Below, piece after piece: positions 2,206-10,029 of a stretch of 64,000 nt of DNA. This DNA is from Bacillus sp. F19 (GTDB lineage Bacteria; Bacillota; Bacilli; Bacillales; Bacillaceae). The first letter of the stretch is position 1, and every line of letters begins with the position of its first letter. The position numbers and the translations under genes were made by a program. The stretch lies in the NCBI GenBank assembly GCA_023823795.1, contig CP085710.1:4242001-4306000 (forward strand), read 5' to 3'. The notes beneath the pieces are model-generated. The model did not search any database. It was given only the letters and a program-made list of their open reading frames with translations, and was not told the origin of the DNA.

Positions 2206-2517
2206 GCGTTATTCAATTAAAACACCTGACTTAATGAAATGGTACTATGAAATGTTTTATAGGTTGGACAGAGCGAGAAAGCGCTCGTATTTTTCCTTCG
2301 AAGCCTATTGTTATTTGCACGATGTTATAGATAAATAAACATATATTTATATTCTTTTACATTAAATTAACAGTAATTTGTAATAGGTTAATATTTTATT
2401 AATTTTACTATAAGGGGTACCGCCACATACCCATCAAGCGAAGTTAAAATCATACCCTCAAAATGAAAAAACGCTATGCTTATCGTAAGAAGTTTACGAG
2501 AAAGGATGGCGTTTTTG

Positions 2518-3849
2518 ATGAATCCTATCATTTCAAATGAACTAAATCTTTTCGCACAAGAGCTACAATACTTTTTATCTCCAGTAGTCCTACAGAACAT
2601 ATCCAAACAAGTTGGCTTTGTACAGCGATCTAGTAAGTATCAAGCAAACGAACTCATTGCCCTTTGCGTATGGCTCAGTCAGGAAATCGCTAGCACATCA
2701 CTTACACATTTGTGCAGTCGGTTAGAAGCTTCCACTGGGGTACTAATTAGCCCAGAAGGACTGAATCAACGCTTTAATCCAGCAGCTGTCGCATTTCTTA
2801 GAGAAGTCTTTACTTCTCTTCTCTCAAAAAAACTCTGTTCAAATCAATCGCTTTCTGCACACATGATTTCTACTTTTAATCGTATCCGTATCTTAGATGC
2901 GACAGTGTTTCAACTGCCTGATCATTTCGCCACTGACTATCAAGGTTCAGGTGGGAGTAGTAATACGGCAGGCGTGAAAATCCAATTGGAATATGATTTA
3001 CTGAGTGGTCAATTTCTTAACATGCAGCTTGGACCAGGAAAGAATAATGATAAAACATACGGTACCACCTGCCTTGAAACCGTTGAGGCAGGCGATTTAT
3101 GTTTGCGTGATCTTGGTTACTTCGATTTAGGAGACTTACAAGCCATTCATGATAAAGAGGCTTACTATATCTCGCGGTTGAAGCTGAATACACGTATTTA
3201 TATCAAAAACCCTGAGCCAGAATACTTCAAAAATGGCACGTTAAAAAAGCAAACAGAATACATCCAACTTGATATGACACAAATGATGTCTGGTCTAACA
3301 CTTGGTGCAACGATGGAAATCCTCGATGCATACATTGGCCAAAATCAGAAGCTTCCAGCACGTGTCATTATCCATCGTTTAACTGATGATCAAACGCAAA
3401 CACGCCTGAAAAACCAAGTGATACGTGAAATGAAGAAAGGCATTGTCATGAAGGATAAAATTAAACGTTTAATGGGCATGAATGTATATATTACAAACAC
3501 GTCGCCAGAAGAAGTAACAACGAACTACGTGCATTCATTGTATTCACTTCGTTGGCAGATTGAGATTTTGTTTAAAACGTGGAAGTCATTCTTCGAAATT
3601 GATGAATGTAAAAATATGAAAAGAGAACGCCTAGAGTGCCATTTATATGGACAACTCATTGGCATTCTCCTCTGTTCTTCTACGATGTTTCAAATGCGAC
3701 AGCTTCTGCTTGAAAAGAAAAAGCAGGAGCTGAGTGAATACAAAGCGATTTATATGATTAAAGATTACTTTCCATTACTGTTTAAGGCGATAGCAGTTGG
3801 TACAGAAGACCTTGGGTACCGCCACATACCCATCAAGCTAATAACGTAA
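2518..3849 (+). CDS. IS4-family (IS231-like) transposase, C-terminus altered by inversion
   Basis: DDE transposase of the IS4 family. The acidic residues sit in RILDATVFQLP, DLCLRDLGYFDLGDL and the YREK signature YSLRWQIEILFKTWK. The start ATG at 2518 is chosen because GAAAGGATGG lies 8 nt upstream. The protein is 443 aa and ends ...LGYRHIPIKLIT, where the family continues with a basic helix. That missing tail is found on the opposite strand (3942-4088). Loss of the tail probably inactivates or weakens the enzyme. Confidence 0.85.
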   Translation: MNPIISNELNLFAQELQYFLSPVVLQNISKQVGFVQRSSKYQANELIALCVWLSQEIASTSLTHLCSRLEASTGVLISPEGLNQRFNPAAVAFLREVFTSLLSKKLCSNQSLSAHMISTFNRIRILDATVFQLPDHFATDYQGSGGSSNTAGVKIQLEYDLLSGQFLNMQLGPGKNNDKTYGTTCLETVEAGDLCLRDLGYFDLGDLQAIHDKEAYYISRLKLNTRIYIKNPEPEYFKNGTLKKQTEYIQLDMTQMMSGLTLGATMEILDAYIGQNQKLPARVIIHRLTDDQTQTRLKNQVIREMKKGIVMKDKIKRLMGMNVYITNTSPEEVTTNYVHSLYSLRWQIEILFKTWKSFFEIDECKNMKRERLECHLYGQLIGILLCSSTMFQMRQLLLEKKKQELSEYKAIYMIKDYFPLLFKAIAVGTEDLGYRHIPIKLIT

Positions 3850-3941
3850 ATTACTAGATACGAAATAATCCTTGTTTCAAAACTAGCGAGTGATGGAAAA
3901 GTAAGCATGCCAAAAAAGCCTTTAAAAACGCGATTTTTTCG

Positions 3942-4088
3942 CTAGGCAGCTTGTCTATGCTTCACCGTCGTTTCATACACAACCCCTAGAATATCAAAGA
4001 CGGTCATCTTCTTATACCGATGACATTTACGACCGTTCTTTTTGAGCAGCTGATAAAGGCGATGCAGAATTTTCAAATGGCGGTACCC
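3942..4088 (-). pseudogene. displaced C-terminal coding segment of the IS transposase
   Basis: Read on the minus strand from GGGTACCGCCA, this encodes [20 protein letters not shown], then [16 protein letters not shown] and a stop. This is the typical basic C-terminus of IS231-like transposases. It joins in frame to the plus-strand gene at the shared codons for GYRH if the segment is turned around, which is the main evidence for the inversion. Confidence 0.8.
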
Positions 4089-4093
4089 CTTAT

Positions 4094-4200: not shown

Positions 4201-4794
4201 TTAATTATCCATTTCTGATTTTCCAACTAGCCCATAGTACAACAGATGATCTAGATCACGAAGCATGGATGAGTTTGTATGCTGAAAAAATCCTGGTTTG
4301 GCTAAAGCTTCTTTAAACATCTGAATATAGAAAATGATGGATTCTAGTGAGATATCAGGATGTATTGAACCTTCCTTTTTTCCTTCTTCCACTAGCTTTT
4401 TGAAAAAAGGAAGTGTTCTTTTTCGATAAAATTCATCCATATGTGCTTTCATGGTCACATCGTCCAAGTGACTTTGTAGCAAGTTTATTTTTAGATTCTC
4501 TGCTGTTTCCTCTTGATCTATCATGATCTTTTTCATCTTCTCGTGAAAAGGGATATCTTGCGATAGGATAGTTTCATACTCAGCTATCCTATTTTCCATG
4601 ATATAAAACAAGGTACTTCGAATCAATTGGTCTTTACTTTCAAAATAATTATAAATGGTTACAGGTGATACATTTGCTTTTTTGGCTACCTCTGAAATAC
4701 TCATTTTTTTAGCTCCATATGTACACAACAAATCAAATGTTGTTCTTACAATCTGTTCTTTTTTCTTTTCCGTACGAAGTAAGTATCCATCCAT
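4201..4794 (-). CDS. TetR-family transcriptional regulator
   Basis: 197 aa with an N-terminal TetR helix-turn-helix (residues ~12-60; MSISEVAKKANVSPVTIYNYF) and a divergent ligand-binding C-terminal domain. GAGGTG precedes the ATG. It is divergent from the cytochrome P450 gene, with a perfect 10-bp inverted repeat between them, so it most likely represses the P450 gene and itself. The ligand is unknown. Confidence 0.9.
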   Translation of the reverse strand: MDGYLLRTEKKKEQIVRTTFDLLCTYGAKKMSISEVAKKANVSPVTIYNYFESKDQLIRSTLFYIMENRIAEYETILSQDIPFHEKMKKIMIDQEETAENLKINLLQSHLDDVTMKAHMDEFYRKRTLPFFKKLVEEGKKEGSIHPDISLESIIFYIQMFKEALAKPGFFQHTNSSMLRDLDHLLYYGLVGKSEMDN

Positions 4795-6346: not shown

Positions 6347-6882
6347 AAAACTCTGGTTCAATCGTTGTTCTGAAGTTTATTGCGGCTGGAAAGTGCTTGA
6401 TGGAAAGGGCCTCTGTGCCCTTTTTACATTTTTTTCTATCTATCGTGCCGCTTTTGGACTTATCTCGGACTACCCCCGTTTATATATAACTAATATTGGA
6501 CCACAAAAATAATAAAAAACGCCCCTAGTCTCCAAACATTTCAGAAGGGGGTCCTGATAGCAAACCGCGTTTTGCTGGCGGTACCCCAGAAGATCATCAG
6601 AACGATTTAAAAGCTGTTTCCGAACACTCCGAGTAGGCTTTTGAAAATTCAATGACAGGTAGTATTTTTTTAAAGGGCAAAAAAAATCTCCACCTTTCCC
6701 ATTGATTTTTCAAATTTCTCGAGCAAACCCAAAAAGGAGGTGTTGATACTCGGCTTGTTCTGAAAAGTATAAAGCGAGAAACCGCCTGCCTACCGTTCAC
6801 AATAGGTTTTTTTCGTTATTCAGATACGCAAAGAGCGACTGCCTCACACCCCAAAAAGAAGGGGAAAAACAAAACCTCCTAA
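6347..6882. other. 536-bp gap with no convincing gene
   Basis: Holds the P450 terminator, then AT-rich sequence with several short unconvincing frames on the minus strand. TGGCGGTACCCC at 6576-6587 is identical to 12 bp of the IS231-like terminal repeat of the 2.4-kb element and may be a residual IS end. The rest reads like a decayed plasmid or phage border. Confidence 0.4.
6404..6427 (+). terminator. terminator after P450
   Basis: AAAGGGC (6404-6410), loop CTCTGT, GCCCTTTT, then more T-rich sequence. Confidence 0.7.
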
Positions 6883-7981: not shown

Positions 7982-8203
7982 TTAAAAAATGAATACTAAA
8001 CCAGTGAAGGTCATTTTAATCAATATGACCGGATCAATACTTGGACGACCTCGATCTGCGGAATAGACTTTCTCTACTAATGGATAGATGAAAGAAAAAT
8101 CGAGAGCTTGTTCAATTTTACGGACTAAGTGATCTTCCGGCACCAACTGTTCAAGTGTAATCATTTCTAGTTGATCGCGATTCATTTGATTATTTTTAGA
8201 CAA
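7982..8203 (-). pseudogene. truncated IS1182-family transposase (N-terminus only)
   Basis: Starts at TTG 8203 behind AGAGGTG with LSKNNQMNRDQLEMITLEQL, followed by VPEDHLVRKIEQALDFSF and GRPSIDPVILIKM. This is the conserved N-terminal domain of IS1182-type transposases (normally ~450-550 aa). Homology stops after ~65 residues and a short unrelated tail ends it. It lies just outside the left repeat of the pyrophosphorylase cassette. Confidence 0.8.
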
Positions 8204-8248
8204 TATCCAAATCACCTCTGTATTGTTCTATTTTCATTATATAAAAAA

Positions 8249-8311
8249 ACTGCCGACAAATCCCCCAAAAAGGGGTATGGAAACGATTCTGTATTTCAGG
8301 GGCCACTATGG
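8249..8311 (+). repeat. left inverted repeat of the cassette
   Basis: Matches the reverse complement of 9963-10029 at roughly four of five positions. It includes a CCCCCAAAAAGGGG mini-palindrome whose A5 loop is T5 in the other copy. Confidence 0.8.
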
Positions 8312-8519: not shown

Positions 8520-9731
8520 TTATTGACTTAATAGCATTTTTTTTGCACTTTCCAAGCTGTCTTTTCCAATTCGGTTTTTTATAGGTGCAAATTCCTTTTC
8601 TCTTAGCACTTGTAATATAGACATGCTCTCAGCATATTGAAAAATATCGAAATAAAATCTTTCGAGCTTGTATCCATTTGGTTTGTTAGTTTTAATCGTT
8701 TGACCATTTTCATTGGTTGAGGGGATAATCTTATGAGCAAAGTGATAAGGAAGATTAACATCAACAGTTTTCTCAAGGAATGAAAGACGAAAAAGATGGA
8801 TTCCAATGTTAGAATTATTAAAGTTTTTATCCTCACATTCTTCTTTACTCATTTCAGAATATTCAATAACAGCAGGTTTTCCGTTGGATAAACATAATAC
8901 TCCTACTTTTTCATCTGGTTCTCTCTTTTCAACGGATTTACTTGATACCTCAGACCCTTTTTTATCCGCGAACCCAATAAACAAGGGATCTGCAACTTGA
9001 ACGAGAGCATTATCAATATTATTGAAAAAAACCCACTGTATACCCTTCATTTTTAGTTCCTTAAGCACCCCGCTTGACTTCATTGAAGCAAATACCCCTC
9101 CGTTTCCGTTGGGTGCCATAAAGATTTTCGACTTACTCTCCAGAATAATTTTACCTTGAGGTGTCAATGAAGGAATAAGTCCTTGTTGAAAGAAAAAGAT
9201 TTGGTTTGGATTACAATTAAAATAATTATTTTTGCTGAAAAATTTCTTTGTTTCCTTATCATTTATCGGGCTAGTCATAATATACCAAGGTATTATCGTA
9301 TTTGTTTGTTCCTCTAGTTTTCGTAGTCTTTCAGCCTGCAATGCAAACAGAGACATTTGAGATGAACTGTCAATACTTATGGTACCTTTTGGTCCATCAT
9401 GACCAAGCCGAGTGCCCTGTCCTCCTGCTAATAGTACAACTGCTACTTTCTTTTCTTTCAAAAGTTTAAATCCTTGTTCCTTATACATTCTTATTTCTGA
9501 ATCGGTAAGATTTTGGACGGATTCAGATTCGATTGGGGTAATTTTATGCTTACTTTTGTTGCATGGATTAGATAATTTTTGGGATGCAATTTCTATTTCC
9601 TTGAAATCAATTTCACTTAATTGATTAAGTAATGAATCTTTCTCTACTTGATTTAACTCTTCATAAAAGGAAAGGAGATGGCCTTGTCCGTATTTATTTA
9701 TTTTTTCTTTTACCAACTGATATTTTTCCAA
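8520..9731 (-). CDS. UDPGP-family sugar nucleotidyltransferase (UDP-GlcNAc/UDP-glucose pyrophosphorylase type)
   Basis: 403-aa protein of the UDPGP type 1 family, which makes UDP-sugars from UTP and a sugar 1-phosphate. The nucleotide-binding loop is VLLAGGQGTRLGHDGPKG (~96-113), and PNGNGGVFASM and IQWVFFNNIDNALV follow as in UAP1/AGX-like enzymes. The TTG start is chosen because GAGGAG lies 9-10 nt upstream. It is AT-rich compared with the core genes to its right. No partner sugar gene is near; the inverted repeats on both sides mark it as cargo. Sugar specificity cannot be told. Confidence 0.8.
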   Translation of the reverse strand: MEKYQLVKEKINKYGQGHLLSFYEELNQVEKDSLLNQLSEIDFKEIEIASQKLSNPCNKSKHKITPIESESVQNLTDSEIRMYKEQGFKLLKEKKVAVVLLAGGQGTRLGHDGPKGTISIDSSSQMSLFALQAERLRKLEEQTNTIIPWYIMTSPINDKETKKFFSKNNYFNCNPNQIFFFQQGLIPSLTPQGKIILESKSKIFMAPNGNGGVFASMKSSGVLKELKMKGIQWVFFNNIDNALVQVADPLFIGFADKKGSEVSSKSVEKREPDEKVGVLCLSNGKPAVIEYSEMSKEECEDKNFNNSNIGIHLFRLSFLEKTVDVNLPYHFAHKIIPSTNENGQTIKTNKPNGYKLERFYFDIFQYAESMSILQVLREKEFAPIKNRIGKDSLESAKKMLLSQ

Positions 9732-9962: not shown

Positions 9963-10029
9963 CCATAGTGGCCCCTCATTCTTCGAATCGTTTCCGTACC
10001 CCAAAAAGGGGGGATTTGTCGACAGTCTG
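9963..10029 (-). repeat. right inverted repeat of the cassette
   Basis: Ends TTTGTCGACAGTCTG directly against the terminator hairpin at 10030. The inner boundary is CCATAGTGG. Confidence 0.8.

Follow-up and report, generated by a model that had tools for sequence, protein, structure and literature searches.

The window, a stretch of 64,000 nucleotides of the Bacillus sp. F19 genome (contig C1, 4242001-4306000), contains a rearranged insertion sequence (IS) between a tatA-like gene and a TetR-like gene (Table 1). The segments 2426-3813 and 3825-4077 are two halves of one element of the IS231 subgroup (IS4 family), and the rearrangement of the right end of this element was confirmed as real.

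Table 1. Positions of the rearranged IS231-type element and its parts in the window.
Feature	Position	Strand	Remark
Element as a whole	between tatA-like gene (ORF 1930-2163) and TetR-like gene (4201-4794, minus)		gene names assigned by eye
Left 11-bp target repeat, GGGTACCGCCA	2415..2425	+	read as host target DNA, outside the IS
Left 1388 bp of IS231-type element	2426..3813	+	left end CATACCCATCAAG; transposase gene up to ..GACCTT
Truncated transposase ORF, 457 aa	2476..3849	+	from the ORF list
Second copy of the 11-bp target repeat	3814..3824	+	came with the inverted tail
Right 253 bp of element, inverted	3825..4077	-	right end at 3825; strand opposite to left half
C-terminal coding stretch	runs leftwards from 4077	-	inside the inverted right 253 bp, which end with CAAA at 4077
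Third copy of the 11-mer (TGGCGGTACCC on the plus strand)	4078..4088	-	still joined to the right flank

The family of the element was assigned from three features. First, the terminal 5'-CAT of the IS231 subgroup is present, with CATACCC at 2426 and, for the inverted right end, at 3825. Second, a DDE transposase is encoded by a single ORF with a truncated 3' end (PF01609, E 4.5e-35), and the DDE_Tnp_1 match covers residues 120-382 of the 432 given. Third, the Y(2)R(3)E(6)K motif is found in the ORF as YSLRWQIEILFKTWK, as compared by eye with the definition in PMC2266710. PMC2266710 describes 5'-CAT ends and direct repeats of 10-12 bp for the IS231 subgroup, and cut-and-paste transposition with some insertion specificity for IS231A. 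Compared with IS231A and its relatives as described there, the element is alike in its CAT ends, in direct repeats within the range of 10-12 bp in some of its copies, in the single-ORF DDE transposase with the Y(2)R(3)E(6)K motif and in the GGG-rich target; unlike them, the window copy has its right 253 bp inverted and its transposase truncated. The 11-mers at the outer flanks of the window copy are inverted with respect to each other, and the same is observed, with one mismatch, in L002, another copy in this genome.

The coordinates and repeats given for this locus in an earlier note were correct. The sequence 2415-2439 is repeated in direct orientation at 3814-3838 (28 nt, 96%), and 3814-3824 and 4078-4088 form a perfect 11-bp inverted pair. 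The same note described a perfect 30-bp terminal repeat, restored when the tail is turned around. The bases do match, since the outer 16 (2410-2425 and 4078-4093) and the next 14 (2426-2439 and 3825-3838), compared apart from each other, are each identical, but only about 14 of them belong to the IS and the rest is target DNA and flank. The left 11-mer together with G2414 would constitute the tip of a Tn3-type terminal repeat.

In order to define the normal form of the element, the window copy was compared with its relatives. In the same genome, BLAST found the halves head to tail in L002 (second contig C2, 98%), L003 (86%) and L004 (85%), unlike in the window, where they lie on opposite strands, and the earlier description of an IS231-like element with an inverted right end is thereby borne out. 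When the halves were used as separate BLAST queries, the left half was 98.3% and the right half 98.0% identical to L002; both halves are thus equally near to this copy, which fits a single original element. Further copies were taken from a pattern-based scan of genome contigs (54 loci), from genomes of the family and the order, and from plasmid records, of which 6 of 33 hits were used. There were 71 rows at the joint, four of them the window itself, and the 67 others collapsed to 44 distinct sequences; this set comprises copies whose left-half BLAST hit extends to position 1380 or beyond of 1388, with shorter hits dropped and identical sequences merged. A comparison with copies in other genomes had been proposed in the earlier note, and in it 42 of the 44 showed the normal joint with zero deviation and the flipped arrangement was seen only in the window. 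Of the two exceptions, L087 has 1 additional base and L144 lacks a right half at that place. The 11-mer GGGTACCGCCA was present at the joint in none of the 44 sequences.

Wider searches gave the same picture. In a looser locus listing, where L126, L138, L144 and L152 have no joint call, no inverted flag was found beyond the window's own four loci. A 240-base query over the window joint matched end to end in 1 of 81 family genomes, the window itself, with at most nine candidates scored per genome, and in 1 of 397 order genomes, our own one, with at most two; the two genome sets overlap, and at these candidate numbers further rare flipped copies may be missed. At least 27 of the order genomes matched the IS, in a count that includes weak matches. 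No empty site was found among the 61 genomes searched per flank, in which only the F19 genome had both flanks matched nearby, as judged by eye. In the coordinates of the relatives, the two halves of the window copy meet within 1 base, and chance is therefore not a reasonable explanation of the arrangement. Two independently truncated copies were rejected as its source, because the break points coincide to one base. An assembly error might be suspected given the several related copies in the genome, but the genome is in two contigs, both joints are exact to the base, and normal order is seen in all of L002-L004, the only copies near full length with at least 85% identity; we regard such an error as very unlikely.

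We then examined the 11-mer in the 36 copies that have both ends readable, a recognisable end motif and distinct flanks. Identical 11-bp direct repeats stand just outside CAT...ATG in eight of them, including three in one Lysinibacillus macroides genome, and direct repeats with at most one mismatch in 10. Inverted 11-mers with at most one mismatch were found in four copies, L002 included, and 22 copies had flanks with two or more mismatches either way, indicating that the target repeats are often scrambled by other events. The bases outside the CAT end vary from copy to copy, many of the 11-mers have the form GGGTnnnnCCA or its complement, and L004, L053 and L071 have the 11-mer of the window outside their right ends as well. 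Judged from these flanks, the 11-mer is host target DNA outside the IS end, and the element proper starts at CAT. We rejected the 11-mer as a part of the IS end, from which its variation between copies excludes it, and also as a native part of the gene, given its absence from the joint in the 44 other sequences.

The surroundings of the target repeats often contain sequences of Tn3-type transposons. In several copies, the DNA past the 11-mer reads as the tip of a Tn3-type terminal repeat, and 12 places in the F19 genome match such a tip with three or fewer mismatches (control, 0). About 130 bp from the right end of L003 there is a Tn3 transposase match, and the plasmid copy L169 has an annotated Tn3 family transposase whose end is about 100 bp away. 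IS231 is known to favour the ends of Tn4430. Bacillus thuringiensis is the host of both IS231 and Tn4430, according to PMC13001229. Outside the two 12-bp tips that flank the window element there is no matching 5-bp repeat (TATAA and TTATT), and consequently the two tips are not demonstrable as coming from one Tn3-type element. Several of the copies L002, L047, L063, L069, L071, L074, L079 and L140 are located between two outward-facing tips, with 11-mers that are inverted and often different in sequence; this suggests either that IS copies at the two ends of a Tn3-type element, since lost, recombined with each other or that ends were exchanged.

Two side observations concern other regions of the window. 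At 6548-6587 (window 6543-6592), a 40-bp piece consists of two Tn3-type tips (GGGGTCC...GGTACCCC) and is flanked by 5-bp AGAAG direct repeats; it appears to be a Tn3-type element of which just the two tips are left. In addition, imperfect inverted repeats at 8249-8311 and 9963-10026 (40 nt at 80% and 18 nt at 94%) are found on either side of a UDP-sugar pyrophosphorylase-like gene (8520-9731, identified by eye), and a short IS1182-like transposase N-terminus (7982-8215, minus strand, also by eye) lies next to this arrangement. This gene is perhaps trapped between two IS ends.

The flip alters the transposase. As had been noticed before, the protein loses its C-terminus, with 457 aa in the window and 490 aa in L002 if the latter is read from the upstream ATG that corresponds to the start in the window; counted by eye, L002 has 476 aa when it starts at a later in-frame ATG. 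The 44-residue C-terminus of L002 is replaced in the window ORF by 11 residues (GYRHIPIKLIT), which are encoded by the 11-mer and the inverted right end. The transposases of five annotated plasmid relatives have 476, 473, 475, 476 and 476 aa (CDS lengths). A transposase of 480 aa, which the earlier note obtained by turning the tail around, does not correspond to the relatives of 473-476 aa, and has four extra residues (GYRH) that are mostly encoded by the 11-mer. Although the DDE domain match is retained in the truncated ORF, the transposase is, judging from its sequence, probably inactive or impaired. As a correctly placed right end is missing, the element would not be expected to move as a unit.

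Detailed comparison of the breakpoints with the normal joint revealed how the segments were connected. The normal joint reads ..CCTTTTGAAA.., and in the window CCTT is found on one side and TTTGAAA on the other, with one T extra. The right-hand 11-mer, of which there is normally one, has two copies in the window, one on the flank and one inverted with the tail; in normal orientation, this latter copy (3814-3824) stands outside the right end. The breakpoints lie at the borders of the 11-mer, CAAA/TGGCGGTACCC being the IS border and CCTT/GGGTACCGCCA lying 11 bases out. Right-hand breakpoints so placed, one at the IS border and the other precisely 11 bases beyond it, are what remains after excision of an IS that had inserted in this 11-mer.

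These joints bear on several explanations of the flip. In the model of the earlier note, the gene already contained an 11-bp copy of the element's own end, which would amount to a 12-bp in-frame insertion, and the tail was turned around by recombination between inverted 11-bp repeats. Perfect inverted 11-mers are indeed present at both ends of the flipped piece, and the same joints would be expected. However, the 11-mer is variable target DNA rather than the element's own end, so that a copy in the gene, seen at the joint in none of the 44 other sequences, would need an unexplained origin of its own, and 11 bp is very short for homologous recombination. We consider this model unlikely, and the 11-mer in the gene, on our reading a duplicated target repeat, more probably resulted from the inversion than caused it.

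Another explanation is an adjacent inversion made by the transposase, in which the 11-mer at the right end was targeted from a break in the element's own gene. IS10/Tn10 produce adjacent inversions and deletions, with inverted copies of the target repeat around the inverted segment and true transposon ends at the joints; the inside ends of Tn10 make such inversions, and the same mode is invoked here. The predicted end state, inverted 11-bp copies around an inverted segment, is indeed that of the window, and in its inverted target repeats the window resembles IS10/Tn10. Its joints, in contrast, are ordinary gene sequence, and the gene sequences at the breaks (AAGGTC.. and TTTGAAA.., in the inward direction) are, by eye, unlike the IS end CATACCCATCAAG that the transposase should need. 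Such an inversion seems improbable to us. We rejected a direct strand transfer that would have joined the right end to the gene, as the 11-mer stands between the two and no 11 bp of gene sequence have been duplicated. Template switching during replication, or an end-joining event independent of transposition, would agree with the blunt joints and the 1-base duplication, which fit many repair routes, but leaves the exact target-repeat borders of both right-hand breakpoints unexplained, and there is little likelihood in our view that it produced the flip.

The earlier note had offered a one-off accident or a self-inactivating switch. A programmed or reversible switch could draw on the inverted repeats that bound the flipped piece, but these repeats are host target DNA, and the inverted flag and the joint match are limited to the window's own loci and genome. 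Apart from the window's own loci, the inverted orientation was seen neither among the listed loci with a joint call nor in the 397 order genomes with at most two candidates each. A switch is thus extremely unlikely, and the flip looks like a one-off transposition accident.

The F19 genome itself has examples of both steps that an insertion followed by an excision would need. At C1:1209604-1209638 of the F19 genome, the ends of IS231-type elements abut across one 11-mer with 0 mismatches (control, 0), and one of these elements, L004, has TGGCGGTACCC on both sides; two weaker sites of this kind in the same genome have 2 and 3 mismatches. Two sites in this genome have doubled 11-mers and no IS: L175 (C2:14154-14175), a perfect tandem 11-mer at a Tn3-type tip (control, 0), and L132 (tip at C1:2341107), which consists of an 11-mer, one base and an 11-mer. 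Both are probable scars of IS231-type excision. A tandem pair of GGGTAGCGTCA was also observed at a Tn3-type tip in another genome that also matches IS copies (L176, G260:C1:4520895-4520916), and it is likewise a probable excision scar. Tandem 11-mer pairs were found in two of the 397 order genomes, both among the at least 27 with a match to the joint query. Their association with IS content gave p 0.0045 with the F19 genome, whose scar was already known, and p 0.066 without it, and the link is suggestive only. A Ku gene is present in the F19 genome.

We suggest, at about an even chance, that the window element is a defective IS231-subgroup copy next to which a second copy was inserted and excised, after which the right 264 bp were rejoined backwards by end joining. 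The element would first have been located between two outward-facing Tn3-type tips, as L002 is. A second IS231-type copy may then have entered the intact 11-mer beside the right end, a target of the preferred kind, giving an 11-mer on each side of this copy. Its departure by cut-and-paste would leave a double-strand break, both ends of which carry an 11-mer. A further break, this time in the transposase gene (..CCTT / TTTGAAA.., with duplication of one base), would have freed the tail, and end joining would have restored this 264-bp tail (253 bp of IS and the 11-bp target repeat) in reverse. The sequence of these events is inferred, as are the second copy and the joining of the ends. The excision model postulates a second copy that was not observed, as well as another break, 264 bp away, for which it offers no explanation. 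Few genomes have doubled 11-mers, as the searched motif is absent in 25 of the 27 IS-matching ones, and slippage could also make them. By eye, there is no microhomology at the junctions that would favour one repair route.

A natural inversion within an IS has been described for ISWpi1 in Wolbachia (PMC3004938). According to that paper, the whole IS was inverted there by recombination between its terminal repeats, and excision with reintegration at the same site was weighed as an alternative. Unlike in ISWpi1, the tail alone is inverted in the window element and the outer target repeat is duplicated. Among the open-access titles listed for adjacent or internal IS inversion, there were only inversions of whole IS and none of a tail.

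A broader reading would be that the IS231 transposase repeatedly enters and leaves a fresh 11-bp target at its own end, and that the resulting breaks shuffle or invert the IS tail, making self-crippling a regular by-product of the preference for Tn3-type tips; we hold this generalisation to be doubtful. Otherwise, the window contains one broken IS copy, ordinary in kind, with instructive breakpoints, and target-site biology can account for what seemed to be a flip switch. The doubled 11-mers may record, in a bacterium that has Ku, cut-and-paste excisions that were repaired by end joining, and such scars make the repair that follows IS231 excision testable.
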